This document shows positions 1 to 16,465 of a DNA stretch of 30,230 bases, in pieces. The stretch covers positions 1 through 30,230 of the IMG/VR virus record IMGVR_UViG_3300050138_000096; one strand, 5' to 3'. The translations under genes and the position numbers were made by a program. This stretch comes from a virus. Numbering within the stretch: the stretch's first letter is position 1; each line of letters opens with the position of its first letter. The notes under the pieces were generated by a model. It did no database searches, had not been told where the DNA came from, and saw only the letters and a program-made list of their open reading frames with translations.

Positions 1-1
1 C

Positions 2-181
2 TGCGCGAAAGTCGCGGACGATGTTGCATCCGATGCCAACGAGAATGCGGTTTACGCTCAAGGAACAGAGGCGTGGACTGTCGGAGCGGCGGACGACTTG
101 TTCAGGGACGCGGCCACGGCAACCAAGATCGCCACTCGCATCCGCGCCCGCGCAGCCCTAGCCACAAACCGAGGTACTTAA
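2..181 (+). CDS. Partial hypothetical protein, 3' end only
   Basis: The frame is open from the left window edge to a TAA at 179-181 and gives about 59 residues rich in Ala, Asp and Arg (ending TNRGT). The next gene starts one base after the stop, the tight packing seen throughout this block. I recognise no domain. The alanine/aspartate-rich helical composition resembles short accessory phage proteins. The 5' end and start codon lie outside the window, so length and function cannot be judged. Confidence 0.45.
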   Translation, partial: CAKVADDVASDANENAVYAQGTEAWTVGAADDLFRDAATATKIATRIRARAALATNRGT

Positions 182-182
182 A

Positions 183-401
183 ATGAGCGATCTCCGCACG
201 GAATTGGAATACGCCATAAATCGGTGCAGCGCTGAGAATGGCTGCAACACGCCGGACTTTATCCTCGCCTCTTATCTCGTCGGATGTTTAGTGAGTTTCG
301 ATGACGCCGTGAACCGTCGCGAGAAATGGTTCGGTCGTGAACCTGATCTAATTGCTCACACCGGTGCCATGGTTTCTCCGGTGGGAGAGACGAAGCCATG
401 A
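183..401 (+). CDS. Small phage hypothetical protein (72 aa)
   Basis: The 72-residue protein begins MSDLRTELEYAINRCSAENG and contains NTPDFILASYLVGCL followed by a basic/aromatic segment (RREKWFGRE). This pattern recalls a small protein widespread in phages of Gram-negative bacteria whose function is unknown. A GAGGT ribosome-binding site lies seven bases before the ATG, supporting the start. The stop overlaps the next start as ATGA at 398-401, so the two are translationally coupled. No catalytic motif or membrane segment is visible. It is probably an accessory gene of the early or non-structural region. Confidence 0.7.
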   Translation: MSDLRTELEYAINRCSAENGCNTPDFILASYLVGCLVSFDDAVNRREKWFGREPDLIAHTGAMVSPVGETKP

Positions 402-496
402 TCGCTCTCTGGGTATTCCTAGGCATCGTCGTGGGGCTGCTGATTTCCGTCGGCTGGGTCGTGTGGCTCTTTCGGAATTGGCGGATACCCAAATGA
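398..496 (+). CDS. Tiny single-pass membrane protein (32 aa)
   Basis: A 32-residue frame linked by ATGA overlaps to both neighbours (398-401 upstream, 493-496 downstream). Residues 2-25 are almost entirely hydrophobic (LWVFLGIVVGLLISVGWVVW), forming one transmembrane helix, followed by a short basic tail (FRNWRIPK). A GGGAG ribosome-binding site sits about ten bases before the ATG. The precise double overlap and strong hydrophobic helix argue for a real gene despite its size. The role is unknown; small single-pass proteins in phages can affect the host membrane or superinfection, but nothing here shows that. Confidence 0.6.
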   Translation: MIALWVFLGIVVGLLISVGWVVWLFRNWRIPK

Positions 497-1017
497 CCTA
501 CCCCTCTCCCTCCGCGATGCTGGCGATGGCCGAGCGGCTGCGAGCGATGGCGCTGACCTTCACCGATTGGAGCTACGAGGCGGTCCAGTTGCGCGAAGCC
601 GCCGCCATGCTTCGCAGCGCCTCCCAACCCGCTCCGCTCTCCGTCCCGGCCGATCTGTGGCGGACGATGGACAGCGCGCTGAAGGATGGGACGCCAGTAA
701 TAATTGCGCAGCCTGTTATCGACTCACGCCAGTGGATTATTTGTGAAGCCCACTACATCAAAGGACGCCGAAAGGATGACCGCTGGTTTGGAACAGGCGA
801 TTATGGAGACGACGACTTTTCTCAGCCCTACAAGCCTACGCACTGGCAACCGCTTCCAGCCGCTCCCGACATTCGGAGCGAGGGCAGCCCGTATTACAGC
901 GACTCCGAGAAGGTATCGATCAGGCAAGGGCTACGTGACGGTCAGAAAAAGGTAGCGGAGGCCGCCAATCGGAGAGAGGGCAGGGACGCGCCGGGAACGA
1001 AGGAGGAGGAAGCATGA
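493..1017 (+). CDS. Hypothetical phage protein with DUF551-like segment (174 aa)
   Basis: The start is the ATG at 493, overlapping the previous stop (ATGA); the frame is open further upstream but that part would lie inside two other genes. An N-terminal helical part carries MAERLRAMA and LREAAAMLRS. The middle has GTPVIIAQPV and ends THWQPLPAAP, which resembles the short DUF551 family of phage proteins that ends in a THW-x-PLP motif. The last residues (GRDAPGTKEEEA) are encoded by a 44-bp repeat that also forms the end of the 1226-2143 gene, so this C-terminus has spread by recombination. The function of the family is not known to me. Confidence 0.65.
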   Translation: MTYPSPSAMLAMAERLRAMALTFTDWSYEAVQLREAAAMLRSASQPAPLSVPADLWRTMDSALKDGTPVIIAQPVIDSRQWIICEAHYIKGRRKDDRWFGTGDYGDDDFSQPYKPTHWQPLPAAPDIRSEGSPYYSDSEKVSIRQGLRDGQKKVAEAANRREGRDAPGTKEEEA

Positions 1018-1019
1018 GC
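976..1019 (+). repeat. 44-bp direct repeat with strong ribosome-binding site, copy 1
   Basis: Exact 44-base match to 2102-2145. It contains the end of one gene, the purine-rich Shine-Dalgarno stretch at 1001-1010 (AGGAGGAGGA), and the start ATGAGC of the next. Each copy therefore is a complete stop/RBS/start junction. Related but shorter matches (the bases for AAPDI-SEG) occur near 858-886 and 2077-2107. Confidence 0.9.
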
Positions 1020-1229
1020 AAGAAACTAACCGTAATCCAACAGGTCGCGCGGCTTTCTGCGCAGGCCGGGCTAATCAAAGCGCGGCTTGGTAAAGAGCGC
1101 GACAAGCTTCGCGAAGTTATCTCCGATCTCGAAGCTATCGAGCAGAACGCCGACGATGCAATCGACGGAGTTGCGTCTGCAATTAGATCGCTGAGTGACA
1201 GCGCCGATGACCTGAGTCAGTACCTATGA
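1014..1229 (+). CDS. Small coiled-coil hypothetical protein (71 aa)
   Basis: A 71-residue protein starting at an ATG that overlaps the upstream TGA (ATGA) and is preceded by the strong AGGAGGAGGA site of the 44-bp repeat. It is almost entirely helical and charged (IKARLGKERDKLREVISDLE, then IEQNADDAIDGVASAI), suggesting a coiled coil that forms dimers or binds a partner. No known family is recognised. Its stop overlaps the next start (ATGA at 1226-1229). Because the preceding repeat is copied at 2102-2145, this gene and the next lie on a segment that could be exchanged or lost as a unit. Confidence 0.6.
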   Translation: MSKKLTVIQQVARLSAQAGLIKARLGKERDKLREVISDLEAIEQNADDAIDGVASAIRSLSDSADDLSQYL

Positions 1230-2143
1230 CCGATCTCCCCGAACCCACCTCACCGACCGTCCCGCAGGGGGCGGAGATCGACGCGCTGATCGAGCAGCTA
1301 CGAGTGCGCAGAGCGGCCTCCAAAAACTGGAGCGGCTCCGCGATTGACACACCTGATGAGGCGTTATGGCACCATGCCGCCGACGCCCTCGCCCGCCTCC
1401 GTCCAGCCGAGCCGATTTCCAATGAGGGTCCGCCTACGGGAAGCCATGCTGCCGCGACTATAGCGGCCGAAACTGGCGCAGAGGGGCTTATGGACCCTTC
1501 CTCTGCGTCCAAGCCCATGACCATGCAGGGAGCGGAGATCGACGCGCTGATCGAGCAATGTCGCGGCATGACGATGTACGGCGACGTGTTGGAACCAGAG
1601 GCTCAACTTTGGGATAAGGTCGCCGACATGCTCGCCCGCCTCCGTCCAGCCGAGCCACTCAGGTGGGCTCCGTCGTGGACCGGACGCGCGAACGTCAATC
1701 TAAATGGCGATGCTTTTGTACACATCTGGCCGGACAACGAATGGGTCATCATTCATTCACGTTCAGGCGGCGTCGAGACGACACTCAGCCTGACAAAGTC
1801 CCAGGCGTTCGATGTGGCCATCGGGCTCACGCCGGAATTATGGGCGCGCTTCGAACGCGCACGCACGGCAGAGAACGCGCTCTATGCTCTGAGCCATCCT
1901 AGTGCCGATCCGGCGACGTTGCGCAAAATAGCCGACGAGATCGACTGCGGATTTGATTGTGAACTGCGCCAATCCAGTGGGCCATGTCGGAAGGCCGAGA
2001 AAGATGGCATGTGCGGGTTCGAGAACGCGACCGATCTTCGCGACTTCGCGGATGCTCTAGAGCGCCGCGCCATGATCACAGCCGCTCCCGACATTTGGAG
2101 CGAGGGCAGGGACGCGCCGGGAACGAAGGAGGAGGAAGCATGA
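1226..2143 (+). CDS. Hypothetical protein with internal duplication (305 aa)
   Basis: A 305-residue protein of unknown function. A unit beginning QGAEIDALIEQ and ending ARLRPAEP occurs twice, at about residues 14-63 and 101-144; the DNA of the unit ends is nearly identical (1271-1296 with 1532-1557; 1388-1413 with 1631-1656). The middle (about 146-215) has a beta-rich sequence with VHIWPDNEWVIIHSRSGG. The last third has Cys-containing CGFDCELRQ and CRKAEKDGMCGFENATDLRD segments. The C-terminal APDIWSEGRDAPGTKEEEA matches the tail of the 493-1017 protein. The start overlaps the previous stop by ATGA. A mosaic, recombination-built protein is the simplest reading. Confidence 0.6.
   Translation: MTDLPEPTSPTVPQGAEIDALIEQLRVRRAASKNWSGSAIDTPDEALWHHAADALARLRPAEPISNEGPPTGSHAAATIAAETGAEGLMDPSSASKPMTMQGAEIDALIEQCRGMTMYGDVLEPEAQLWDKVADMLARLRPAEPLRWAPSWTGRANVNLNGDAFVHIWPDNEWVIIHSRSGGVETTLSLTKSQAFDVAIGLTPELWARFERARTAENALYALSHPSADPATLRKIADEIDCGFDCELRQSSGPCRKAEKDGMCGFENATDLRDFADALERRAMITAAPDIWSEGRDAPGTKEEEA
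1271..1656 (+). repeat. Internal tandem duplication inside the 305-aa gene
   Basis: Two imperfect copies of a roughly 130-150-base unit. The left ends match over 26 bases (1271-1296 and 1532-1557) and the right ends over 26 bases (1388-1413 and 1631-1656). The middles have diverged, and the spacing differs by 18 bases between the two match pairs, so small insertions or deletions accompanied the divergence. A separate linker of about 37 codons lies between the copies. Confidence 0.8.
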
Positions 2144-2145
2144 GC
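2102..2145 (+). repeat. 44-bp direct repeat with strong ribosome-binding site, copy 2
   Basis: Exact copy of 976-1019, offset 1126 bases. It again ends one gene, carries the AGGAGGAGGA ribosome-binding site and starts the next gene with ATGAGC. Homologous recombination between the copies would remove the genes at 1014-1229 and 1226-2143 and leave a functional junction. Confidence 0.9.
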
Positions 2146-2796
2146 CCATACGATCCAAGACCGATCAGTGAAGGCGGCAACTGCGGAATTGATGAGGTGT
2201 TTACGCGCGCCGCCCCGAAGGGGAAATGGCGTGTGATCGGCGTTGACACATTCGACGGTGGAGATTGGTTGCAGGGCGACTTCGACACGAAAGACGCTGC
2301 CCTAAAGTGTGCGCAAGATCGCGGTGGCGAGATGACCAAGATGCACGTCTATGACGATGAAGGTCGCCGTCTCGCCATAGTCCGTCTTGACCTTATCGCG
2401 GGCGGCATCCCACGACATGCAGCCTGGAGCTGGCGTATCGGCATAGGCGGCGAACGTCAGCAGGATCGCAGCAACAGTGCCGAACACCGTCAGGAGCGCG
2501 GCGCGGATGGTGTTGGTCATTGGGAGCAGCCCTTTCGTGATGGAACCAAATCGCCCGGTCGTTCGTTGTCTCTGCGCGTGAATTCTTCATACCCAAAAGG
2601 AGAATTGAAATGGCAAAGTATCAAAGCAAAAATGTCACAGTCCTTCGCGATGCCAAGCAGGGTGACGCCGGTTTTGTCGCTGGCTCGGACCAGATTCTCA
2701 TCAAGCTCGAAGATGGTAGTCAGAAGGTTGTCAGCCGCAGAGATGTGGTGGAGTCCTGATCTCAACGAACGCAAGATCATCCGCATACCGCCGTAA
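2140..2796 (+). CDS. Phage hypothetical protein; 3' part probably not genuine
   Basis: The ATG overlaps the previous stop (ATGA) and follows the repeat-borne strong ribosome-binding site. The first 75-80 residues (SPYDPRPISEGGNCGIDEVF, GKWRVIGVDTFDG, GEMTKMHVYDDEGRRLA) look like a compact conserved phage protein that normally ends soon after the last motif. Here the frame runs on to 2796, through DNA antisense to the 2302-2520 gene and out of frame with the 2610-2759 gene, with low-complexity Arg/Ser-rich sequence. I think the native stop was lost when the region rearranged. The first 80 residues are well supported, the remainder poorly. Function unknown. Confidence 0.5.
   Translation: MSPYDPRPISEGGNCGIDEVFTRAAPKGKWRVIGVDTFDGGDWLQGDFDTKDAALKCAQDRGGEMTKMHVYDDEGRRLAIVRLDLIAGGIPRHAAWSWRIGIGGERQQDRSNSAEHRQERGADGVGHWEQPFRDGTKSPGRSLSLRVNSSYPKGELKWQSIKAKMSQSFAMPSRVTPVLSLARTRFSSSSKMVVRRLSAAEMWWSPDLNERKIIRIPP
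2302..2520 (-). CDS. Small secreted protein, possibly 3'-truncated (72 aa)
   Basis: On the minus strand, an ATG at 2520 is preceded by AAAGGG about ten bases upstream. The protein has a clear signal peptide: short basic start (MTNTIR), hydrophobic core (AALLTVFGTVAAILLTFAAY) and an AYA-DT cleavage site near residue 27. A short exported domain with one Cys follows (GCMSWDAARDKVKTDYGE). From about residue 52 the coding DNA lies opposite the conserved part of the 2140 gene, so the original C-terminus was probably lost in a rearrangement that joined two convergent genes near 2370-2385. Function unknown; a periplasmic protein is inferred. Confidence 0.45.
   Translation of the reverse strand: MTNTIRAALLTVFGTVAAILLTFAAYADTPAPGCMSWDAARDKVKTDYGETATFIVIDVHLGHLATAILRTL
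2610..2759 (+). CDS. Small beta-rich hypothetical protein (49 aa)
   Basis: A 49-residue frame with a textbook AAAGGAG ribosome-binding site about six bases before its ATG. The protein (MAKYQSKNVTVLRDAKQGDA, then GFVAGSDQILIKLEDGSQKV, ending RRDVVES) looks like a small folded beta-barrel of the KOW/SH3 style, with hydrophobic residues alternating. It lies in a different frame from the long read-through frame of the 2140 gene, and its sequence is much more protein-like than that frame. A terminator hairpin follows 50 bases downstream, consistent with this being the last gene of the leftward + strand block. No function is recognised. Confidence 0.65.
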   Translation: MAKYQSKNVTVLRDAKQGDAGFVAGSDQILIKLEDGSQKVVSRRDVVES

Positions 2797-2809
2797 GGCG
2801 TTGAAATAG

Positions 2810-2842
2810 CCCCGCTTAGGCACCATGCCGAGCGGGGTTTTT
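2810..2842 (+). terminator. Rho-independent terminator
   Basis: The stem CCCCGCT (2810-2816) pairs with AGCGGGG (2831-2837). An inner stem GGCA/TGCC (2819-2822 with 2826-2829) stacks on it, and a run of five T follows at 2838-2842. It ends the + strand block after 2759 and sits exactly between convergent transcription units; for - strand transcripts the hairpin is followed by a poorer T run. Confidence 0.85.
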
Positions 2843-2844
2843 CT

Positions 2845-3051
2845 TTATTTACTGTCCGAGAAACGGTGTTTTAACGCACAGACACAGCACTCGTGCGCGT
2901 GTCTAATAATCTCTCGCAATTCCCAAACATCTTGGAGCAACTTATGTCTTTCCGTGTCATCGGAGACCCCCGCCAGAGCACCAGCTTGTCGAGCGTTTCG
3001 ATGGGTGGGTGGGGCCGGTGGGTCTGCGAGGTTCGGCGCGATACTGGCCAT
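2845..3051 (-). CDS. Small hypothetical protein with paired cysteines (68 aa)
   Basis: The ATG at 3051 lies just after the stop of the upstream minus-strand gene and is preceded by a perfect AGGAGG (3061-3066) at nine bases spacing. That ribosome-binding site is the main reason to accept the gene. The protein has a Pro/Ala-rich start (NLADPPAPPTHRNARQAG) and a helical C-terminal half (LLQDVWELREIIRHAHECCV) with three Cys. It is the last gene of the minus-strand lysis block and runs up to the terminator. No family is recognised. Confidence 0.55.
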   Translation of the reverse strand: MASIAPNLADPPAPPTHRNARQAGALAGVSDDTERHKLLQDVWELREIIRHAHECCVCALKHRFSDSK

Positions 3052-3053
3052 GT

Positions 3054-3407
3054 TCAGGAACCTCCTGTGTCGTTGCTGCGGTCACGCGCAACCATGTTCT
3101 GAGCCAGTCGATCAAGGCGCGCGACAAGCGTCTCCATGCGGGAATAGAGCCGGTCGAACGAGGTTATCAGGCGATCCTCGGTTTCCTTGAGCACTATAGT
3201 GGAAACGTGGTTATGCGAAACATAGACCTTGAAGGCATTGAGGTCTTTCTCTATGGCGTGCCGCGCTTCTTGCTCTAGAGATACCATAGCCTGCCTTGCC
3301 ATTTGTTCGGCCACAAATTTAGCTTCGATCCGCCACCATAGAGCGAACAAGCCGGCGACAACTGCCAGCGCCAGCCCAATGGTTACTCCGCTGTTGTCGC
3401 CTATCAT
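3054..3407 (-). CDS. Membrane-anchored coiled-coil protein in lysis block (117 aa)
   Basis: The N-terminus has a single transmembrane helix at about residues 8-25 (VTIGLALAVVAGLFALWW), followed by a long charged helical region (RIEAKFVAEQMARQ, ETEDRLITSFDRLYSRMETL) predicted to form a coiled coil. This topology, a short N-terminal anchor and an extended helix, resembles i-spanin (Rz-like) subunits or other envelope-spanning helpers of phage lysis, and it sits in the lysis block. There is no sequence signature that proves a spanin. A GGAAT site lies upstream of the ATG. It is followed closely by the 68-aa gene. Confidence 0.6.
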   Translation of the reverse strand: MIGDNSGVTIGLALAVVAGLFALWWRIEAKFVAEQMARQAMVSLEQEARHAIEKDLNAFKVYVSHNHVSTIVLKETEDRLITSFDRLYSRMETLVARLDRLAQNMVARDRSNDTGGS

Positions 3408-3463
3408 GTGCCATCATTCCTATCCATGCGTGAACGAGTGGGCGGCATTGGCGCCGCTTATCG

Positions 3464-3652
3464 TCACCCTATCCCGTTAGCCAGTAGCGGCCAGAGGAAG
3501 CGGATGAGCGTCACCAGAAGTATGCCGCCGATGATGTACCAGGCTATTGTGATAAATACGGGCGGGATTGGAATTCCGCTCCATCGCACCAGAGCGATGA
3601 CGCAAGCCACAAATACGACGAGAACGACGATGAGGACAAGAATGTGTTCCAT
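3464..3652 (-). CDS. Two-helix small membrane protein (62 aa)
   Basis: The 62-residue protein consists almost wholly of two hydrophobic helices, about residues 3-23 (ILVLIVVLVVFVACVIALV) and 31-55 (VFITIAWYIIGGILLVTLI), separated by a short Pro-containing turn (RWSGIPIPP). An AAAGGA ribosome-binding site lies about ten bases before the ATG. The size and double-helix hairpin fit a class II holin-like protein or antiholin, but the 4001-4306 product is the better holin candidate. Its place in the lysis block supports a membrane function during lysis; this is inference. Confidence 0.6.
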   Translation of the reverse strand: MEHILVLIVVLVVFVACVIALVRWSGIPIPPVFITIAWYIIGGILLVTLIRFLWPLLANGIG

Positions 3653-3665
3653 TGGTTAAGTTCCT

Positions 3666-3746
3666 TTAGCTGCGCCAGTCCAGCCACAGAGCGACCGGAC
3701 ATCCGACAACGAATACGAACTCGATGATGACGAAGGCCGCGATCAA
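3666..3746 (-). CDS. Possible 26-aa membrane peptide (TTG start)
   Basis: A TTG codon overlaps the stop of the upstream gene (TTGA at 3743-3746) and opens a 26-residue frame ending in TAA. The peptide is one hydrophobic helix (IAAFVIIEFVFVVGCPVALW) with the tail LDWRS. The ribosome-binding site is weak (AAGAAG), so translational coupling would be needed. The exact stop-start overlap and the membrane-helix composition are the only support. It may be a real micro-protein like the one at 398-496, or chance. Confidence 0.35.
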   Translation of the reverse strand: MIAAFVIIEFVFVVGCPVALWLDWRS

Positions 3747-3997
3747 CGATGGCGCTTCTTAGAGAATGGCGCCATTGGGATCGGCGGCTTTGGCGTCTGG
3801 GGCGGCGGTGGAGCTGGCGGGTTTGCCTCTCTGTTCACGCGTAACACTTCGCTGACCAGATCAGCGATGAAGTGGTCCGTGGCCGCCTGATCGCGGAACC
3901 AACGCTCACTCATCGACTCTCGGTGAGATTCGTACCAAGCGCGCACCAGTGTGGCAATCTCAGTAGCGCGGATAGTCGGATTGATGGAGAACTGCAT
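3743..3997 (-). CDS. Hypothetical protein with Pro-rich tail (84 aa)
   Basis: An 84-residue protein with a helical first 55 residues (RATEIATLVRAWYESHRESM, then WFRDQAATDHFIADLVSEVL) and a proline-rich C-terminal tail (ANPPAPPPPQTPKPPIP) ending in basic KKRHR. No family is recognised. AAAGGAT lies about ten bases before the ATG, and the upstream holin-like gene stops a few bases away. The tail composition suggests an extended, possibly partner-binding segment. It belongs to the minus-strand lysis block by position. Confidence 0.6.
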   Translation of the reverse strand: MQFSINPTIRATEIATLVRAWYESHRESMSERWFRDQAATDHFIADLVSEVLRVNREANPPAPPPPQTPKPPIPMAPFSKKRHR

Positions 3998-4000
3998 GGT

Positions 4001-4306
4001 TTATGATCCTTTCGCCGCATCGGCGGGTGCCGGCGGATTCTTAGGGTAAACAATTGCGTCGGTCGCCGGAATACCCACGCTCATTTGCGCACCGACTGAA
4101 ATCGGCACGATGTTCGCCGCCTTGGTGACGGTGCTGGCGTTGGTCTTATCCATGATCGCCCAGATAGCGAGGCCAAGCGGCACGACAAGCGCCGCAAAGT
4201 TGGTTGCATCGTTAGTGCTGATCCATCCCTTGCCCACGGCAAAGGTAAATACGGCGATGAGCAGAGAGCGGATGGCGCTGAGTATCTGATCCTGGTTGGG
4301 TGTCAT
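4001..4306 (-). CDS. Putative phage holin (101 aa)
   Basis: Holins form pores or lesions in the inner membrane that time lysis and release endolysin. This protein has an N-terminal amphipathic part (PNQDQILSAIRSLLIAVFTF), a helix-break AVGKGWIS, and a second hydrophobic helix (FAALVVPLGLAIWAIMDK, about residues 37-54), then a polar Ala/Pro-rich tail. The arrangement resembles the Pam3-gp28 type of putative holins. It is ATGA-coupled to the upstream lipoprotein gene (4303-4306) and lies downstream of the endolysin. The assignment rests on topology, motif style and place; a paralogous small membrane protein is encoded nearby. Confidence 0.65.
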   Translation of the reverse strand: MTPNQDQILSAIRSLLIAVFTFAVGKGWISTNDATNFAALVVPLGLAIWAIMDKTNASTVTKAANIVPISVGAQMSVGIPATDAIVYPKNPPAPADAAKGS

Positions 4307-4618: not shown

Positions 4619-5587
4619 CTATGCTGCCGGAGGATTGTCGCGGACGGAGTTGGCGGCATCGACAACCGCCTCGACCCCTGCAGCGATGGCTCCGCCCGGA
4701 ATCAGGTGCTGTTCCCAGCCGGGAACCTTGTTCTTAATCATAGCGGCCATGGCTTCGTTACCGGCGGCGATCTGAGCCGCGAGGGTCTTGGCGTCTACGG
4801 GAATTACGGGCATGTTAAAGTTTCCTTTTGCTGAGTTGATTGCATTGAGATCAATCTGAAGCTGGACCGCGTCGAAGCCGTTCGGCGCGACCCCGGCCTT
4901 GAGGAACTCCTGGCTAAAGTACGCTAGGGACTCGTCATTGTTGGCGAGAAAAAAGTCCATTGAGACCCGTTGTACTCTACCCCACGTCACGACGAAGAGG
5001 TATCCGTCGCGGAAGTCGGTGAGCGCGACGTAATGGCCTCCGGCAGTAGCTGGATCAAGCGGCCCGTCCCACGGCTCACCTCGATCAAATTGATCAACCT
5101 GAGCCCGACTGACCTGGAGCCCGAGACCAACAGCACCAAAGAGCCACGTTGCTAGTTTGTGCTGGGCGAAATTGCCGCGCTCTACTGAGACATACCCGGT
5201 GATCGGGTGCCGCTTGCCGCTTGCGTCAATCATCCCGGTCTTGCGGCGATACGAAGCTGCGACCTGCATATCGGCGCCCTGATCCGTGGATGGATCGGTC
5301 GGGTCATATCCGGTGATGGCGCTGTAGTCAGCGATGGCGGTGCCGTCAGTGAACGATGCCGCCGATCCGCCGGATGCAGTCCAAAGCATGGTTTCATGCT
5401 CGGCCCCTGCGATCACGCAGTCTCCGATGGAATCGTTGGAAAGCATCCCGCAGTCTGTCGGCAGCAATGAACTGTAGCCGAAAGCCGCCGGGGGCTCTGG
5501 CAATGCCACGGCATACTTGGCGAACTTGAGCTTGGGCTGGGCCTCCGGCCGGGCCGGCTTTTTGCCGAAGCAGAGTGTTGTGATCAT
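4619..5587 (-). CDS. Papain-fold-like phage protein (322 aa)
   Basis: The start chosen is the ATG at 5587, which overlaps the upstream stop (ATGA at 5584-5587) and has GGAG ten bases ahead. The arrangement matches the order of a C1-type cysteine-peptidase fold: a Cys in SIGDCVIAGAEHE (Cys57), a His in AGGHYVALTDF (His185) and a TWG (201-203) where papains have NSWG. The classical Asn is not evident, so peptidase activity is uncertain. The C-terminal third is Ala-rich and probably separate (IPGGAIAAGVEAVVDAAN). Position among lysis genes suggests a role at the cell envelope or an injected or late enzyme. The family is common in phages but not, to my knowledge, characterised. Confidence 0.6.
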   Translation of the reverse strand: MITTLCFGKKPARPEAQPKLKFAKYAVALPEPPAAFGYSSLLPTDCGMLSNDSIGDCVIAGAEHETMLWTASGGSAASFTDGTAIADYSAITGYDPTDPSTDQGADMQVAASYRRKTGMIDASGKRHPITGYVSVERGNFAQHKLATWLFGAVGLGLQVSRAQVDQFDRGEPWDGPLDPATAGGHYVALTDFRDGYLFVVTWGRVQRVSMDFFLANNDESLAYFSQEFLKAGVAPNGFDAVQLQIDLNAINSAKGNFNMPVIPVDAKTLAAQIAAGNEAMAAMIKNKVPGWEQHLIPGGAIAAGVEAVVDAANSVRDNPPAA

Positions 5588-5778
5588 GGACCTTCGTCTC
5601 CGAGTGGCCAAAAAATGGGCTCGCGGACACTCATAATCAGGTAGCTTGGTACTGGCTTGAGTTCACCGCACAGCACCGCGAGAATATCCTCAACAGTCCG
5701 TGGAACGGATCGTTCTGTCGGCAACGAGGCGAGTTTGTGGACGATCGCCTTCGGCAAATGCAGAACGACCTTGGTCAT
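5584..5778 (-). CDS. Small hypothetical protein (64 aa)
   Basis: The ATG at 5778 overlaps the endolysin stop (ATGA), and the stop overlaps the papain-like gene's start, so the gene is coupled on both sides. An open extension to 6033 in this frame is antiparallel in character to the endolysin code and was rejected. The protein has a beta-strand/helix start (MTKVVLHLPKAIVHKLAS) reminiscent of ribbon-helix-helix proteins, then VEDILAVLCGEL and a tail. There is too little to call it a regulator. It lies between endolysin and papain-like protein, so a lysis or accessory role is possible. Confidence 0.55.
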   Translation of the reverse strand: MTKVVLHLPKAIVHKLASLPTERSVPRTVEDILAVLCGELKPVPSYLIMSVREPIFWPLGDEGP

Positions 5779-6455
5779 GTAACTACCGCTTGATCTAGCG
5801 CGGCCTTTGTCGCCGGGCCGGCGATGCCATCTACGGCAAGGGGTTGGTTGGCGGTCTGGAATGCCTTCACAGCCGCCGCAGTCTCCGGGCCATCGATACC
5901 GTCGATGGCGCCGGTGTAAAGGCCCATGGCAGCGAGTTTGGTCTGCACATCGCTGAGCGTCATCTGGCCGGCAGAAGCGACCACAGAGGGCGCCACAGTT
6001 GGCGTCGGTACAGCTTTCCCAGTCGCCAGCCACGAATTGTAGGCAATTTGGGCCATTTGATCCCGCGTCTGCATACGCAGCACACCGGCGCGCTCATAGA
6101 ACTGCTCAAAGGCTGCGGTCTTGGCAATGAGGCCAGAGGCAGATGCAACGGCTGTTACCGTCGATGCGTATGGCCCACGAAGTTCCCCCAGCAGCATCTG
6201 GTAGTTGCCTTCGTCGCTGTTCGGATCAAGCCCATGTGCGGTGCAGAAGGCGAAGAACTGTGTGCGGCGTGGGCCAGTCCATTGCGCCCAACCAAACCCC
6301 CCATTGGGAGGGGTCTGGCCACCTTCCTGCACGGCGGCTAGTCCGCTTTCAGCGCCAAGATTACCAAGGCAGGCGGAGGCATCCATCGCCCCCCATTTGG
6401 GAATGTCTGTGACCAGACGGTTTATGATGACAGGAGCTTTGCTTGTGAATGTCAT
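5775..6455 (-). CDS. Endolysin: phage-tail-lysozyme domain plus peptidoglycan-binding domain
   Basis: This enzyme should cut the glycan strands of peptidoglycan at lysis. The N-terminal domain (about residues 5-140) shows the hallmark of the lysozyme-like Phage_lysozyme2 family: CLGNLGAESGL with the likely catalytic Glu36, and GFGWAQWTGPRR (53-64). After a Pro/Thr/Ala linker (about 148-162), the C-terminal residues 168-223 form a PG_binding_1 repeat (VQTKLAAMGLYTG, then DGIDGPETAAAVKAFQ, then VDGIAGPATKAAL). There is no signal peptide, so export relies on the holin encoded downstream. Both ends overlap neighbours by ATGA. Length and architecture are typical of alphaproteobacterial phage endolysins. 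Confidence 0.88.
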   Translation of the reverse strand: MTFTSKAPVIINRLVTDIPKWGAMDASACLGNLGAESGLAAVQEGGQTPPNGGFGWAQWTGPRRTQFFAFCTAHGLDPNSDEGNYQMLLGELRGPYASTVTAVASASGLIAKTAAFEQFYERAGVLRMQTRDQMAQIAYNSWLATGKAVPTPTVAPSVVASAGQMTLSDVQTKLAAMGLYTGAIDGIDGPETAAAVKAFQTANQPLAVDGIAGPATKAALDQAVVT

Positions 6456-6826
6456 TTCATCACCTCAACTTGAACCGGCGCAGTACCACTGACTCCGAGC
6501 GCATGCGCCGCCGCGACGGTCAGATCGACTATTCTCCCGCGAGCGTATGGCCCACGATCAAGAACTTGGGCAACGATGCTGCGCCCGTTGACCTTGTTCG
6601 TCACGCGGACCCGCGTGCCACATGGCAACGTCCGGTGTGCGATCCAATACGAGAGCTTCCGCAGAATCGGCCCGCAGGCCGTCTTGTGACCGAAGAAGCC
6701 GGGGCCATAAAACGAGGCAAGACCACGCTCTGCAGCCTCTACCGGCATGGCGATGACAACGGTGCATAAGAATGCAATGCCAATAACACACTTGCTAACG
6801 GTTCTCTGTTGCGTTATCGCTATCAT
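6452..6826 (-). CDS. RlpA-like double-psi beta-barrel protein (124 aa)
   Basis: RlpA proteins are septal lytic transglycosylases that act on peptide-free glycan strands. A signal peptide (about residues 12-31, ending VEA) precedes a double-psi beta-barrel with GLASFYGPGFFGHKTACG, HRTLPCGTRVRVTN, and VLDRGPYARGRIVDLT (Asp of DRGP matches the usual catalytic Asp). There is no SPOR domain and no lipobox Cys, so it is a minimal secreted form. An AGGAT site lies about seven bases before the ATG. It is the first gene of the lysis block and ATGA-coupled to the endolysin, so it probably helps open the wall. The start is four bases from the divergent 6830 gene. Confidence 0.82.
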   Translation of the reverse strand: MIAITQQRTVSKCVIGIAFLCTVVIAMPVEAAERGLASFYGPGFFGHKTACGPILRKLSYWIAHRTLPCGTRVRVTNKVNGRSIVAQVLDRGPYARGRIVDLTVAAAHALGVSGTAPVQVEVMK

Positions 6827-6829
6827 TCG

Positions 6830-7045
6830 ATGATCCTGCCTAGAGAAATCCTTAGAGAGAGCGAAGCCTTGCGGCTTCTCAGGCTACGCTGCCGACAAGC
6901 TGGCGGTATCAACGCTTTTGCCAGATTACACGGCTTGTCTCAAGCATACGTTAGTTTGGCCGTTTCCGCCAACCGCACGATTGGTCCAAAGATTCTCAAG
7001 GCAATCGGCCTGAAACGCATCATCTCCTACATGGCTATGAAATGA
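6830..7045 (+). CDS. Small HTH transcriptional regulator, Cro-like (71 aa)
   Basis: The product has a helix-turn-helix core (GGINAFARLHGLSQAYVSLA, then VSANRTIGPKILKAIGLKR), the pattern of small phage Cro/CI-type DNA-binding proteins whose last helix ends in ILxAxGL. The ATG at 6830 lies four bases from the divergent RlpA-like start; a TTG at 6809 is an alternative. I see no good ribosome-binding site for either. It overlaps the glycosyltransferase by ATGA (7042-7045), so it heads the + strand sugar genes and may regulate them and the divergent lysis block. That target is inference; the DNA-binding fold is fairly clear. Confidence 0.7.
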   Translation: MILPREILRESEALRLLRLRCRQAGGINAFARLHGLSQAYVSLAVSANRTIGPKILKAIGLKRIISYMAMK

Positions 7046-8531: not shown

Positions 8532-9217
8532 TGGACGCCCGCGAGAAATGGCGCGGGGTCCGGGCGACGGATACACCCGTATCGCTTCGATTCAGCCCCA
8601 ATCTTGTCGATCGATTCCTTGGCGATCCCAAGCGCCTGAGTTTCCTTTTCGGACGCTATGCCTTCGCGGCTAAAATGCTGGCCGATTGCGAAACCATACT
8701 CGATGTCGGCTGCGGAGCTGGCGAGGGCACGCTGACGTTCCTGCAGGACACGCGCGCTCACGATATCCTCGGCCTCGATTTCGACGAAACACTTATCAGA
8801 TATGCCAGCGAAGATTTAACCGCTGCGGTACTTCATGCGCGGTGGCAGGATGCTGAACGCATTGAATTCAAGCACGCTGACTTTCTGGAATACTCCGCAC
8901 GTGGCTTTGGCGGCATCTCTTGCATGGACGTTATCGAGCATATCGATCCGGCGCGCTCTAACAACTTTATCGGCCGCCTATCCGAGTCAGTGACCAGCCA
9001 CGGAATAGTCGTTGTTGGCACGCCGAATGGTCATGCCGCCCATCTCGGTTCAGAACATTCGAAATTGGGCCACATCAACAATTTCACGCCGCAACGCCTT
9101 CGTGACGATCTGCGAAAGTATTTCAGTGCCGTGTTCATGTTCGGCATGAACGACGCTACGTTGAACGTCGGCCACGATCACCTTTGGCACTATGTCATCG
9201 GAATCGGCGTCAAGTGA
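8531..9217 (+). CDS. Class I SAM-dependent methyltransferase (228 aa)
   Basis: Motif I for S-adenosylmethionine binding is clear at about residues 57-66 (LDVGCGAGEG), followed by an acidic strand end (LGLDFDETLIRYA) and a later CMDVIEHIDP and VVGTPNG, as in class I methyltransferases acting on small molecules, sugars or quinones. The start is the ATG at 8531, overlapping the HNH stop (TGATG); an earlier ATG at 8465 would run inside that gene. The stop overlaps the E1 alpha start (GTGA). In this context O- or N-methylation of a sugar or glycan end is likely, but the substrate is not visible from sequence. Confidence 0.82.
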   Translation: MDAREKWRGVRATDTPVSLRFSPNLVDRFLGDPKRLSFLFGRYAFAAKMLADCETILDVGCGAGEGTLTFLQDTRAHDILGLDFDETLIRYASEDLTAAVLHARWQDAERIEFKHADFLEYSARGFGGISCMDVIEHIDPARSNNFIGRLSESVTSHGIVVVGTPNGHAAHLGSEHSKLGHINNFTPQRLRDDLRKYFSAVFMFGMNDATLNVGHDHLWHYVIGIGVK

Positions 9218-10167
9218 CACCGCTCGAACTGCATCGCGAACTTCTGCGCCTTCGTCGCAGCGAAGAATTGCTGGCTTCCCTGTATCGCCAGCAGGAAATG
9301 CGCACCCCTACCCATTTTGGCATCGGGGAGGAGGCCATCTCAGTCGGTGTCTGTGCAGCTCTCAATCTGCCGCATGACGCAGTGTTCACGCACCACAGAT
9401 CGCATCTCGCCTACCTGGCTTGTGGCGGGTCGTTCGAAGCCCTCTGCGCCGAACTCTACGGACGCGAGACTGGCTGCTCACGCGGACGCGGCGGCTCAGT
9501 CCATCTCACATCGCGCGAACATGGCTTCATCGCATCCAGCGCAATTCTCGGGGAAATGATTGCAGTCGCCACCGGAGCCGCATGGGCGTTCAAAATGAAC
9601 CACGAAGACCGCGTTGCGGTGTGCTTCTTTGGCGAGGGAGCTGCCGACGAAGGTATCCTATACGAATCTATGAACTTCGCGTCACTGAACAAACTGCCGG
9701 TCCTGTTTGTCTGTGCCAATAATAAATACGCCACCGAGAGCCCGCTTAGTGCCCGCATGGCAGCCGATGCTGACCTTATTGATCGCGCCGAGACGTTTGG
9801 TATCGACGCATTCGAGGTTAATGGCAACGATGTTGGCGAAGTGTACGAAACTACGCAGCGGGCATTACAACACGTCCGCGAGGGACAGCCATGTTTTCTA
9901 GAATGCGCCACATATCGCTGGCTGGAACACGTCGGCCCCAACTACGATTTTGAGATGAATCGCACCTACCGATCACGCGATGAACTCGAAGAATGGCAAG
10001 CGCTGCGTGATCCTATTGTTCTCAGCGCGGAAAACCTGACAGTCTCAGAATTCGATTCACTTGATGTGATGGATGCCGAAATCCAAGCCGAACTGAAGGC
10101 CGCTGCTGATCGTGCCTATGCGGCTCCAAAGCCGGATCGGTCAACCATGTTTGTGAATGTGTGGTGA
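9214..10167 (+). CDS. Thiamine-pyrophosphate enzyme, E1 alpha subunit type (317 aa)
   Basis: The protein belongs with alpha subunits of pyruvate/acetoin-type E1 dehydrogenases. It has THHRSHLAYLACGG (60-72), GCSRGRGGSVHL (87-98) and the TPP/Mg motif GEGAADEG (140-147) with NN at 169-170. The start is a GTG whose bases overlap the methyltransferase stop (GTGA); an ATG 30 bases earlier lies inside that gene. With the beta subunit downstream it should form an alpha2beta2 enzyme that decarboxylates a 2-oxoacid or ketose and transfers the carbon unit. No E2 or E3 gene is present, so a transketolase- or acyloin-synthase-like reaction on a sugar is plausible but unproven. Confidence 0.85.
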   Translation: MTPLELHRELLRLRRSEELLASLYRQQEMRTPTHFGIGEEAISVGVCAALNLPHDAVFTHHRSHLAYLACGGSFEALCAELYGRETGCSRGRGGSVHLTSREHGFIASSAILGEMIAVATGAAWAFKMNHEDRVAVCFFGEGAADEGILYESMNFASLNKLPVLFVCANNKYATESPLSARMAADADLIDRAETFGIDAFEVNGNDVGEVYETTQRALQHVREGQPCFLECATYRWLEHVGPNYDFEMNRTYRSRDELEEWQALRDPIVLSAENLTVSEFDSLDVMDAEIQAELKAAADRAYAAPKPDRSTMFVNVW

Positions 10168-10460
10168 GCGCCATGAATCCCAAGAAACCTATGCCTGATC
10201 CCGTCCTTCAAGTGATCGTTGTTGACAGAGACGCGAAGGGAACGACCAAGGCAGCCATAATGCATAACCGATTGGCTGCCAGTTACGCGGGAGCCCTTGC
10301 TGCCGATCTCATAAAAGTGACCGCTGCAATGGATTCAGCCTTCGAAAGAGAGCCGGCCGCTATCGTTGACAGAGCCATCGCCATAGCCACCATCGCCACA
10401 AATAGAATGTGGGAATCTGGTCTGCTTATCGAAATTCCTGACTACAACGAACTCGTATGA
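10164..10460 (+). CDS. Small unknown protein between E1 alpha and beta (98 aa)
   Basis: The GTG at 10164 overlaps the E1 alpha stop (GTGA); the ATG at 10173 is an alternative start. The product has a basic start (KKPMPDP), a short beta-like stretch (VLQVIVVDRDAKG) and a long helical part (HNRLAASYAGALAADLIKV, then AAIVDRAIAIATIATNRMWE) ending in IEIPDYNELV. I recognise no family. It overlaps the E1 beta start by ATGA, so it is tightly coupled between the two subunits. It could be an accessory subunit or assembly factor for the TPP enzyme, or an unrelated phage gene that entered the operon. Confidence 0.6.
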   Translation: MSAMNPKKPMPDPVLQVIVVDRDAKGTTKAAIMHNRLAASYAGALAADLIKVTAAMDSAFEREPAAIVDRAIAIATIATNRMWESGLLIEIPDYNELV

Positions 10461-11488
10461 GAACCCTCAAATATCGAGAGGCCATATCCGAGGGCCTTGT
10501 CCAGGCGATGGAACAGGACCCGTCGATTTTCGTCACCGGCATTTCGGTTAACTATTCATCGCACGTATTTGGCACCACCAAGGAAGTCTCCGAACGTTTC
10601 CCGGATCGCGTCATCACCACGCCCGCGATGGAAAACGCCCTGACCGGCATTTGCATCGGCGCCGCCGCCATGGGCAAGCGTCCTGTCATCGTGCATGACC
10701 GTGCTGATTTTTCTTTCCTCGCGATGGACAATCTTATCAATCTCGCCGCCAAGTGGAAGTATATGTACGGCGGTAATGCCGGCTCGGTTCCGATTGTCAC
10801 CCGCATGATTATAGGTCGAGGATGGGGACAGGGTGCCACGCACTCGCAGGCGATTCATTCTCTGTTTGGACATTTTCCTGGATTGGCAGTAGCCATGCCA
10901 GCGACACCCTACGCCGCCAAGGGCGTCACAATGGCTGCTCTTGCAGCTGACCATCCAACGGTCATTTTGGAGCATCGCTCCCTATTCGAGATTGAGGGGC
11001 AAGTACCCGAAGAACCGATGACTGAATTTGTCCCGCGTCGTCTTCTTTGGCTTGGCCGAGACCTTACCATCGTCGCGACATCTCACATGGTCATTGAAGC
11101 TCTTGCCGCCCAACGCGCTCTCTCCGAGATGAACGTCTCCGTGGAAATCATCAATCCAGTGTGGATCAGGCCGCTTGATGGAGACGCCATACTGGAATCC
11201 GTTCGTAAGACCGGCCGACTGCTCGTCGCCGATGTTTCGCATGAACTCTGCGGCTTTGCCTCTGAGGTATCCGCTCTCGTGGCTGAGAAGGCTTTCTCAT
11301 CCCTCAAAGGGCCGATCCGCCGGCTTACCCTTCCCGACTGCCCTGCGCCGGTAGCCCAGAGCCTTGAGGAGGCGTTTTATCCCAAGGCTTCAACGATTGT
11401 TGGCTTGGTCCTGGAAATGCTTGGCCGAGATGTTCCTGAAGGTCTGGCAACAATTGATCGCGTCGATTCGTTCAAGGGTCCGTATTGA
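10457..11488 (+). CDS. Thiamine-pyrophosphate enzyme, E1 beta subunit type (343 aa)
   Basis: The fold is that of E1 beta subunits and the second half of transketolases. It begins TLKYREAISEGLVQAMEQDP, has TPAMENALTGICIGAA (55-70) with the conserved cofactor-proton-relay Glu59, and RGWGQGATHSQAIHSLF (121-137) including the conserved HSQ. The C-terminal half (RRLLWLGRDLTIVATSHMV, then INPVWIRPLDGDAI) is the transketolase C-terminal domain. The start overlaps the small gene by ATGA. The last 112 bases lie opposite the 3' end of the convergent kinase gene, and the C-terminal 20 residues (after LEMLGR) look like an extension beyond the usual end. Confidence 0.85.
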   Translation: MRTLKYREAISEGLVQAMEQDPSIFVTGISVNYSSHVFGTTKEVSERFPDRVITTPAMENALTGICIGAAAMGKRPVIVHDRADFSFLAMDNLINLAAKWKYMYGGNAGSVPIVTRMIIGRGWGQGATHSQAIHSLFGHFPGLAVAMPATPYAAKGVTMAALAADHPTVILEHRSLFEIEGQVPEEPMTEFVPRRLLWLGRDLTIVATSHMVIEALAAQRALSEMNVSVEIINPVWIRPLDGDAILESVRKTGRLLVADVSHELCGFASEVSALVAEKAFSSLKGPIRRLTLPDCPAPVAQSLEEAFYPKASTIVGLVLEMLGRDVPEGLATIDRVDSFKGPY

Positions 11489-13002
11489 GCATCGCGCTCG
11501 ATCTCGCCAAGCCGGGCCAGAACATCCTCCGTTGATACCGGGATATTGCCATTCCGCTCGCATTCGATAGCTGCTGCGATTGAGCCAAGAATGGATGCAA
11601 TCAAGTCTGAGCCCGTCGCCTTACGGGCCAGCGAAGCATAGGCCAGAAGCGCGTCCCCGGCCCCTACGGCGTCCACAAGTCGGTTGACGAAGCTCGGGAC
11701 CACGTAGAGGTAATGCCCCTCTCCTACGGGCGCGCATTGCGTCAAGACGCCCCTGTCGCCCATCTTGAGGATCAGGGTCTTGCAGCGCGCTTCCTCGTAA
11801 AGACGCGAGGCCAGCGGACGAATGACTGAATCCTGATCTCCCAAGGCAAACCGAGCTTCCCGTTCGTTCGGAGTAATCAGGTCGAAGTCCTTGAAGTCGA
11901 GGATATTGCCCCAACGGGAGGCAACTTGACTGTCCGCCACGCGGAAGGCGTCTTTCGGAATGGCCCGAATCAGACGCGGAATGGTGTCCCGGTTGAAAAT
12001 TCCGTGCCGGAAGTCGCTGAACAGGACGATGTCAGCCGGGATCGCAACTACATTGCCAGCCAGCCGATTAAGCGCCCTGTCAGAGATGGATCGATTGTCC
12101 ACCGTATCGACCTTAAGCAGGCGATAGCCTGACGCCACGAAAACATTTTTGTTGGTCGTCGGCCGGCTAGAATCGGTTTCGTGATGTAGGTATATTCCCG
12201 CCGCCTGCATATCCTGGATTACCAATCGGGCGTTCGGATCATCTCCAAGAATCGTGGAGAAGGATACGTCTCCCCCCGCCGCCTTCATGTGTTTGGCGAC
12301 AATGGCCGCCCCTCCCACAAAATCCTTGCGGCTTTGGATTTGAACGCTGAGTGTCGGCGTCTTTCCTAGCCCTCCGGTAGGAGTGGTTTCAGTGATCGTG
12401 TCAAGAATAGTGTCACCGACGACATGAACCCGAAGACCACGCATGGCAGCCAGCGCTTCGCGCAGATCGTCAAACGTCGTGCCGTGGGCTTCCATCGTGG
12501 TCGCGAGGGTTTCCACCGCTATGTTTGGCGGTGAAGCATTAATGAGCGCAGACGACGAATACACCACGTCTCCGGGCGTAAATAGCATCTCGCCGCCGTA
12601 GCTTTCCACCACGCTGCGCTCGGCATCAGTAGTTGGATGGCCACTGGCGTACTCGAACCCCTTGGCGAAATAATCCGGCTGGATCAGACCAAGATTCCTG
12701 AGCGCTGTCGGTTCATCGTCAATGATGACGTAATCGACAAACTCGTAAGCCGCCAGATTGATCGCCCGTAATTGTTCGGTAACATACGGACGGAAATTGG
12801 CTTTGACCACATGCCGGTCTGCCGTGATCGATGCCACCAATACGTCGGAGTGTTCCTTGGCAAACATCAAATGTCGCAGATGACCCGGATGCACAATGTC
12901 GAATGTTCCGTGGCACATGCATACCGTTTTGGAACGCGGACGTGACCCGAGAATGGCGATCAGTTCGGCGGCGGTCTTGATCTTATGCCGGTAGTTGTTC
13001 AT
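11377..13002 (-). CDS. Sugar nucleotidyltransferase/PfkB-kinase fusion, HldE-like with reversed domain order (541 aa)
   Basis: This should phosphorylate a sugar phosphate and transfer a nucleotide to it, as in heptose activation. Residues 1-150 form a cytidylyltransferase-like domain with CHGTFDIVHPGHLRHL (30-45, HxGH) and RPYVTEQLRA. Residues about 190-500 form a ribokinase/PfkB kinase starting RVHVVGDTILD and carrying the GAGD signature (447-450). In E. coli HldE the kinase comes first, so the order is reversed. Residues about 505-541 are encoded opposite E1 beta and look like an added tail. The start overlaps the dehydrogenase-like gene by ATGA. The nucleotide (ADP, CDP or other) cannot be read from sequence. 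Confidence 0.85.
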   Translation of the reverse strand: MNNYRHKIKTAAELIAILGSRPRSKTVCMCHGTFDIVHPGHLRHLMFAKEHSDVLVASITADRHVVKANFRPYVTEQLRAINLAAYEFVDYVIIDDEPTALRNLGLIQPDYFAKGFEYASGHPTTDAERSVVESYGGEMLFTPGDVVYSSSALINASPPNIAVETLATTMEAHGTTFDDLREALAAMRGLRVHVVGDTILDTITETTPTGGLGKTPTLSVQIQSRKDFVGGAAIVAKHMKAAGGDVSFSTILGDDPNARLVIQDMQAAGIYLHHETDSSRPTTNKNVFVASGYRLLKVDTVDNRSISDRALNRLAGNVVAIPADIVLFSDFRHGIFNRDTIPRLIRAIPKDAFRVADSQVASRWGNILDFKDFDLITPNEREARFALGDQDSVIRPLASRLYEEARCKTLILKMGDRGVLTQCAPVGEGHYLYVVPSFVNRLVDAVGAGDALLAYASLARKATGSDLIASILGSIAAAIECERNGNIPVSTEDVLARLGEIERDAQYGPLNESTRSIVARPSGTSRPSISRTKPTIVEALG

Positions 13003-13661
13003 TGCAGCGTAGCCTTGAGGCGGTTTACCGTATCCACGTCACGCGGCAGATGGCCGCCGATCACGCCGGGACGAATGTAGGCATGCTCGCCGATGCGCTT
13101 GTCATAGCGGAGGCTCGGCACGATCTCATCCCAGTCCGCACCGATCTGACTGGCGATGAATGCCAGTTGATTGGAAGCCGTAATATGCGCCGCCAACAGG
13201 TAGTTGACTGCCAGTTTGGACAGTTCTGCGCTCTCGAAACTCATGCGGTGAACCGGCACTTCATAAGCGGCCAGATATGCCGCGTAGGCTTCGGGTAGCG
13301 GCTCACTAACATCTCCACTTCCAACTACTATGCAATCCGGAGCATACGCCATGTCGGCTTCGTGCCCACGGATCAAGGTATGTGGCTGGTAGTAAACTTC
13401 CGGCCGACGATGCGCCCACGGTCTTGTCCAGCCCGGCGGGACTTGGCTGGTGACGATGATCGGCACATCGGCAGGCACGTTGTCCACGGCCCATTGCATC
13501 ACGTCGCGGACGCCTTCCATACTGCGATGGTCGTCAACTTCCTTGGCGACAAACACCAGATCGGAGAGATATGGCACATCGGCCAGTACAAAGCCACGTC
13601 GTTCGGCCGCGCTCCCCAGCACCTGTGCAAGCGGCCCGTCACCGAGGAAACAGACGTTCAT
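12999..13661 (-). CDS. Short UDP-sugar-dehydrogenase-like protein lacking the active-site Cys (220 aa)
   Basis: UDP-glucose-type dehydrogenases oxidise a sugar C6 to an acid using NAD and a Cys in GGSCFPKD. Here the N-terminal Rossmann part is shortened but keeps MNVCFLGDGPLAQ and TSQVPPGWTR, and the central helix keeps ESAELSKLAVNYLLAA with Lys149 and Asn153. At the expected Cys site the sequence is GGHLPRDVD (202-210) with no Cys, and the protein ends there, without the usual C-terminal nucleotide-sugar-binding domain (families are typically about 430 aa). It may act on a sugar phosphate or do a two-electron oxidation only. ATGA overlaps both neighbours. Confidence 0.75.
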   Translation of the reverse strand: MNVCFLGDGPLAQVLGSAAERRGFVLADVPYLSDLVFVAKEVDDHRSMEGVRDVMQWAVDNVPADVPIIVTSQVPPGWTRPWAHRRPEVYYQPHTLIRGHEADMAYAPDCIVVGSGDVSEPLPEAYAAYLAAYEVPVHRMSFESAELSKLAVNYLLAAHITASNQLAFIASQIGADWDEIVPSLRYDKRIGEHAYIRPGVIGGHLPRDVDTVNRLKATLQ

Positions 13662-15986: not shown

Positions 15987-16465
15987 GCGCTCTCCAGAAT
16001 AATGGTTGCTGCGGTATCCAGATCGGCAGCCCGGTGCATGGGCTTGACCGGGAGCGGTTCACCGTAGGCAGTCCCGATCAGAATGGTTACGCATCCAGCA
16101 GCGTGACCGGCGCTGATGTCCCGCCAGCGATCGCCAACCATGAAGCTGCGCGGCAGATCGATGTCATAATGCTTGGCCGCCGACAGGATCATTCCCGGCT
16201 TGGGTTTCCGGCATTTGCATTCGTCTGCATCCACATGGGGACACATTTGGATGCTCTCAAGAGGCAGAACACGTTGAAGCGATGCATTCACACGGTCCAC
16301 AATTTCACGCTTGATCTTGCCCGTGGCTATGTCCGGCTGGTTGGTCACAACGATCAGCGCAAACGATTCCTTGAGACGGTCCAATGCTGCCTTGGCACCG
16401 GGAAAGACCGATCCGGAATGATCGAGCAATACGCCATCCCGGTCCAAAAAAACGGCGCGTCTCAT
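15983..16465 (-). CDS. GmhB-like HAD phosphatase (160 aa)
   Basis: GmhB removes the C7 phosphate of heptose 1,7-bisphosphate between the kinase and nucleotidyltransferase steps. The protein has the HAD motifs FLDRDGVLLD (Asp8 nucleophile, Asp10), VVTNQPDIATG, RKPKPGM and VGDRWRDI, plus the GmhB-type zinc-binding loop CPHVDADECKCRKP. The ATG at 16465 overlaps the isomerase stop (ATGA); an ATG at 16483 would add six residues inside that gene. The size is close to the 190-residue GmhB but slightly shorter. Preference for the alpha or beta anomer cannot be told from sequence. Confidence 0.86.
   Translation of the reverse strand: MRRAVFLDRDGVLLDHSGSVFPGAKAALDRLKESFALIVVTNQPDIATGKIKREIVDRVNASLQRVLPLESIQMCPHVDADECKCRKPKPGMILSAAKHYDIDLPRSFMVGDRWRDISAGHAAGCVTILIGTAYGEPLPVKPMHRAADLDTAATIILESA

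Follow-up and report, generated by a model that had tools for sequence, protein, structure and literature searches.

A duplicated gene-boundary sequence with a built-in stop, ribosome-binding-like site and start in the accessory operon of a soil phage

Introduction

An old question about phage mosaics is whether they arise through homologous recombination at short boundary sequences or through random joining followed by selection. In lambdoid phages, short conserved sequences at gene boundaries have been put forward as recombination sites (Susskind and Botstein 1978; Clark et al. 2001, on HK620; both as cited in a passage of PMC3029335). The same passage describes, for the adjacent genes 67 and 68 of cluster I mycobacteriophage Island3, a common 60-bp 3' end that encodes 18 C-terminal residues, and reports a single recombinant copy in the sister phage Brujita (PMC3029335). 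Cluster K mycobacteriophages carry start-associated sequences (SAS), which place a ribosome-binding-like site just 5' of the starts of different genes; a passage in PMC3203893 gives them as a 13-bp sequence, GGGATAGGAGCCC, present in 11-19 copies and mostly following gaps of over 50 bp. In T4-type phages, short intergenic elements called PeSL cassettes have been proposed to drive gene shuffling (a passage in PMC4503421), and Ea22 proteins with unrelated C-terminal parts have been described as ending in a common +GE tripeptide of unknown significance (a passage in PMC7093339).

Here we analyze the window, a 30,230-nucleotide stretch of viral DNA (IMG/VR record IMGVR_UViG_3300050138_000096), and describe a concrete, testable junction for this question. 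The finding is a modest one: a duplicated boundary sequence in which a stop, a ribosome-binding-like site and a start are built into a protein tail, with one gene replacement observed beside it. We propose that the repeat is probably gene-boundary homology in a tailed-phage mosaic accessory operon, used by general homologous recombination. It most likely belongs to a known kind of sequence and is not a dedicated device.

Results and discussion

A 67-nt junction unit embedded in coding sequence

The accessory operon around the repeat includes the following frames.

398-496, plus strand: 32-residue membrane-like peptide
493-1017, plus strand: gene A, DUF551 protein, 174 residues (PF04448 at 26.8 bits, cut-off 22)
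1014-1229, plus strand: gene B, 71 residues, no confident family
1226-2143, plus strand: gene C, 305 residues, no family match
2140-2796, plus strand: gene D, open frame

ATGA overlaps couple five consecutive gene pairs here (starts at 398, 493, 1014, 1226 and 2140, including the pairs 183-401/398-496 and 398-496/493-1017), and stop/start coupling is thus not peculiar to the repeat. What is peculiar to the repeat is a common sequence together with a strong ribosome-binding-like site: among the six starts compared, the AAGGAGGAGG site stands only at those of genes B and D, and at both it is supplied by the repeat.

The initial annotation had described identical 44-base copies that each end one gene and start the next, and both statements hold. 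The two copies have no differing letter, a scan at up to three mismatches finds them and nothing else in the window, and none of 100 shuffles contains a match. Each copy holds three elements: the stop of A or C, the ribosome-binding-like site, and the start of the next gene, which overlaps the stop as ATGA (at 1014 for B and at 2140 for D). The length of 44 bp is right for exact identity, but self-comparison of the window reveals the 44-mer as a portion of a longer, 67-nt unit, the copy of which in gene A is split by an insert.

976-1019, plus strand: 44-mer, copy 1
2102-2145, plus strand: 44-mer, copy 2
2079-2145, plus strand: intact 67-nt junction unit, with the end of gene C (tail AAPDIWSEGRDAPGTKEEEA and stop), the ribosome-binding-like site and the start of gene D
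857-887, plus strand: left part of the unit in gene A, 31 nt
888-983, plus strand: in-frame insert in gene A's copy of the unit, 96 nt
984-1019, plus strand: right part of the unit in gene A, 36 nt, with the tail end, the ribosome-binding-like site, the stop of A and the start of B

The copies of the unit inside the window differ at 1 of 67 letters. The unit encodes the C-terminal tail AAPDI.SEGRDAPGTKEEEA up to the stop, its tail codons contain the ribosome-binding-like site, and its ATGA is both stop and next start. A shared tail, GRDAPGTKEEEA, had been annotated earlier; it is indeed common to proteins A and C, but the common tail is longer and reads AAPDI[RW]SEG...RDAPGTKEEEA. The insert in gene A has the 8-nt sequence GAGGGCAG at either edge (880-887 and 976-983), and its end (962-983) is a diverged copy (86%) of 866-887, within the unit's left part.

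No promoter-like or terminator-like consensus site was found within the 67 nt, sigma-70 being the sole promoter consensus tried, and counts of such sites in 1-3000 are no higher than in shuffles; one terminator-like match lies within gene A's insert (967-953, minus strand). The RNA fold of the three junctions is no better than that of shuffles. PeSL cassettes are reportedly promoter early stem-loops, in work attributed to Arbiol (2010) and Comeau (2014). We rejected the unit as a PeSL cassette, as it has no promoter-like site by the sigma-70 consensus and no notable fold.

Gene C contains an internally duplicated module (1264-1413 and 1525-1656), the edges of which are 92-97% identical in DNA (33 and 36 nt) and the middle of which is not.

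1264-1296, plus strand: repeat D4, copy 1, left edge of the gene C module
1525-1557, plus strand: repeat D4, copy 2; the public contig PLZC01000364.1 ends exactly at 1525

Beyond the second junction, the frame of gene D continues into the antisense of a signal-peptide-like gene. D is for this reason probably truncated: the start would be genuine, but only a shortened gene would follow before the frame enters antisense sequence. The antisense portion (2302-2796) runs through the convergent signal-peptide-like gene (2302-2520, minus strand). Both frames look cut short near 2360, perhaps at an illegitimate joint.

A relative in which the unit precedes a different gene

The exact 44-mer has no match in viral_contigs, a collection that may omit near-identical records; proteins A and C have no relatives there or among GenBank phages, and DNA 1-4200 has no match in GenBank phages. 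A search with alignment A1 returned one relative, hereafter L003 (IMGVR_UViG_3300050138_000268, 10,283 bp, IMG/VR), together with two weak matches, and L003 is the one relative found to carry the unit. A search with P0007 (688 residues, structural) returned 13 loci, and the 13 records concerned have no match to window positions 1-2400 at E 0.01; no copy of the unit was found at E 1 in the fetched stretches of these loci, L028 and L029. A search of 297 genomes from the phylum of G002 gave two matches, G002 itself, which carries the same phage, and one 24-base match, which we set aside as a chance ribosome-binding-site match, the surroundings sharing nothing more.

The L003 unit differs from the gene C copy at 3 of 67 positions and from the gene A copy at 2 of 67. 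It is split by an in-frame insert of its own, 60 nt long, which lies at another place than that of gene A and has GGGAACG at both edges. The genes before the unit are A and C in the window and A' in L003, and three different genes follow it: B after copy 1, D after copy 2, and E in L003 (best PHROG match phrog_419, function unknown). The initial annotation would have been undercut by a 44-mer peculiar to this sequence with constant flanking genes in relatives; the first part agrees with the search of viral_contigs, but the genes after the unit vary. Gene order is A, junction, B, C in the window and A-type, junction, E, C-type in L003. B (216 bp) and E (264 bp) are unrelated, yet both lie between the junction and homologous C and C'. 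Since the same junction and a homologous C start enclose either B or E, one gene was replaced between them. In DNA, A and A' are alike at the N-terminus (85% over 48 nt), in a linker of 24 nt and in the tail, and differ in the remainder. Elsewhere in the operon, the L003 homologue of the 32-residue peptide lies at another place, downstream of the gene C homologue; this homologue of C matches both edges of the duplicated module, once each.

These observations allow the swap proposed in the initial annotation to be upheld in part: a gene was replaced beside the junction, whereas the removal of intervening genes was not seen. The deletion form is absent from the matches obtained, but the collections may omit near-identical records, and such a variant of this phage could have escaped notice. 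We infer that recombination within the unit produced the swaps.

The arrangement could instead reflect a simple duplication of a gene end, in which the tail was copied once onto another gene by unequal crossing-over or template switching and had no continuing role in exchange. The presence of just two window copies with a single difference in 67 letters would fit such an event, as would the further local duplications in gene C. In L003, however, the unit stands before a different gene and carries its own in-frame insert, and more than one event therefore involved the unit; we consider a single duplication rather unlikely.

An assembly artefact, in which strain sequences were fused at the common 44-mer, is highly improbable. 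The window is a metagenome-type virus record, and a separate contig, PLZC01000364.1 (Acidobacteriaceae bacterium isolate palsa_352, a MAG), stops at a repeat edge and leaves copy 1 uncovered, as fusion might predict. The same contig is nonetheless 100% identical to window positions 1525-26528, confirming copy 2, and L003 repeats the order of A-type gene, junction, one gene and C-type gene. The end of the contig at the repeat edge in gene C could mark an assembly branch or population variation. The contig is binned in an Acidobacteriaceae MAG, and the phage-host link is for this reason doubtful.

A third explanation invokes selection on translation or on the tail itself: the unit would be a strong translation-coupling signal, or would encode a functional C-terminal peptide, with recombination uninvolved. 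Such selection would account for the perfect AAGGAGG site at the ATGA overlap, and purine-rich end codons also occur in 6 of the 9 ead/ea22 genes examined below. It is difficult to reconcile with three other features: the remaining ATGA junctions of the operon have no AAGGAGG site, identity between the window copies reaches 47 nt upstream of AAGGAGG, synonymous positions included, and the tail is interrupted by inserts at different points in A and A'. Selection of this kind is thus an improbable explanation. The tail is probably disposable, with no essential protein role.

Identity islands at gene ends and within genes

Comparison of the window with L003 yields 14 exact runs of at least 20 nt. 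Six of these (24-30 nt) are islands with unalignable, about random flanks on both sides, a flank being called unalignable when an ungapped comparison over 29 nt gave less than 50% identity. The six fall within 630-2145 and correspond to four places in L003. Seven runs in backbone genes (3121-3541 and 6755-6927) have flanks that are 55-100% identical, and the remaining run, 128-166, has a homologous flank on one side. The two islands that reach a gene boundary both belong to the unit's right part; another is its left part, and the other three are intragenic linkers in A and C, two of which are listed here.

630-653, plus strand: identity island of 24 nt, linker inside gene A, common with L003
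1387-1414, plus strand: identity island of 28 nt, linker LARLRPAEP; the L003 place also matches 1631-1656

Lying at a gene end and in intragenic linkers, and having unalignable flanks, the islands have the appearance of joints for exchange within a mosaic operon. Gene ends are not demonstrably favoured between the window and L003, since only 2 of 6 islands, both of them the unit, lie at boundaries (placement null mean 0.75, P about 0.16). For this reason "modular gene-exchange device", the term of the initial annotation, is too strong. The three intragenic linkers also speak against it. A PHROGs scan of 30 window ORFs, out of 139 mechanical ORFs, revealed no recombinase; for 183-401 and 6452-6826 the scan used Pfam alone.

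Fourfold sites differ between the window and L003 at 67 of 168 positions in the backbone and at 0 of 33 in the shared segments, the 55 codons of which contain five changed residues and one silent third-position change. We abandoned this comparison as independent evidence of recent exchange after an ascertainment control, in which the best backbone windows of similar or greater length had as few as 4 nucleotide differences in 63 codons. As the best backbone windows are also nearly identical, the low divergence of the segments stems partly from how they were picked. The real signal in these alignments is the abrupt edges of the identical segments.

Comparison with known boundary sequences

Like the lambdoid boundary sequences proposed to serve homologous module exchange (passage in PMC3029335), the unit is a short identical junction sequence amid otherwise unrelated neighbours: it is near-identical at a gene junction across genomes, its flanks are unrelated, and different genes stand before and after it. 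It differs from them in belonging to another phage group, in being unrelated in sequence, in lying within coding sequence and in being duplicated in one genome, and it is a putative exchange site. For Island3 and Brujita the single-copy form is known, whereas in our case we see only duplicated copies, along with a replaced gene in a distant relative. The unit resembles SAS in position, but is 67 nt long, present in two copies, coding and overlapping, as opposed to 13 bp and many copies; the SAS sequence is absent from the window at up to two mismatches and from the unit at up to three.

An independent parallel comes from the ead/ea22 region of enterobacterial phages. We examined lambda and eight further phages (HK620, P22, HK022, ES18, APC_JM3.2, D6, epsilon15 and D2), these eight being 8 of the 40 rows listed from 156 records. 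KGE is the ending of six of the nine ead/ea22 genes (in lambda, HK620, HK022, JM3.2, P22 and epsilon15), with AAAGGAGAGTGA or AAGGGGGARTGA as their last codons. The ead/ea22 genes of ES18, D6 and D2 end otherwise, although KGE closes the next gene in ES18 and a later gene in D6. The next ATG lies at -4 to +1 nt in five of the six KGE-ending genes (for HK022 the ATG was read from sequence and is unannotated; for P22 the annotation of eaI marks its start as not confirmed). Lambda is the exception, with 191 nt to the next annotated gene. At this junction HK620 has 27 nt in common with HK022 and 28 nt with JM3.2, with unalignable flanks. Of 12 islands among the eight phages, 10 lie at gene boundaries, against a null mean of 1.3 and a count attained in 0 of 5000 placements, though these ten derive from three boundary sequences and hence are not independent. 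P22 has an exact 26-nt repeat that flanks eaF and overlaps its start and end, which is the window's arrangement in a textbook phage; in the stretches fetched, epsilon15 and ES18 have one copy each, at the start of ead.

As in the window, the ea22/ead/eaA genes (lambda, P22, HK620, HK022, ES18 and epsilon15) have swappable C-terminal domains, including DUF551; the codons of their shared tails (AGIRIKGE and variants) embed a purine-rich site, as in the unit; and different genes follow one identical junction, as in the window and L003. No sequence likeness to the unit was seen, and the family link is DUF551 in gene A only. Well-known enterobacterial phages show the same pattern.

A model for exchange at the unit

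Under our preferred reading, gene-boundary homology used by general homologous recombination, the 67-nt sequence encodes, for the upstream gene, a C-terminal tail that is probably disposable and the codons of which may double as a Shine-Dalgarno site for the next gene, with ATGA serving as stop and start. If this putative ribosome-binding site works, an upstream gene ending in the unit would give any downstream gene a working start. General homologous recombination, phage- or host-encoded, could act between copies in one genome or in co-infecting phages; as any partner would receive a working start, recombination between copies would yield viable swaps, and the copies would persist.

We tentatively extend this idea, as a speculation that we hold to be doubtful, to the tails of swappable accessory genes across unrelated phages (AAPDI.SEG-RDAPGTKEEEA here, AGI-KGE in Ea22). 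These may be portable coding adaptors and not protein motifs, providing the next gene's ribosome-binding site along with homology for exchange, kept since swaps stay viable, and growing by in-frame insertion at short repeats. The junction may also offer a simple explanation of the puzzling C-terminal tails that some proteins have in common, the +GE ending in Ea22 among them.

Other features of the window and of L003

A sugar cluster at 11377-17073 (minus strand) encodes a cytidylyltransferase with a PfkB kinase (HldE-like), a UDP-glucose dehydrogenase-like protein, an NAD epimerase, a transaldolase, a HAD hydrolase and a SIS-domain protein, and may resemble the ADP-heptose pathway. The domain order of its HldE-like protein is presumably the reverse of that in E. 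coli HldE. In one 419-residue frame (14727-15986, minus strand), residues 3-167 form a GIY-YIG/NUMOD3 homing-endonuclease-like part and residues 187-384 a transaldolase part. The frame at 9184-10167 (plus strand) matches dehydrogenase E1 component, PF00676, and that at 10457-11488 (plus strand) matches the later part of phrog_34187, a PHROG also matched by 9184-10167; because both fall on one PHROG, these neighbours could represent phage-borne alpha and beta subunits of E1. A structural protein at 26553-28619 (minus strand) is similar to "phage stabilization protein" records, with MW202675 as best GenBank match (41.9% identity over 95%).

In L003, the homologue of the signal-peptide-like gene lies at 9342-9773 (plus strand). 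A 54-nt direct repeat (89%) at 10217-10164 and 3196-3143 encodes MRERVV[DE]VLRP and some upstream residues, and the frame at 5228-5818 (minus strand) contains, at 5762-5573, short GGCTACGGC/GGCGACGGC-type repeats that encode Gly-Tyr-Gly/Gly-Asp-Gly.
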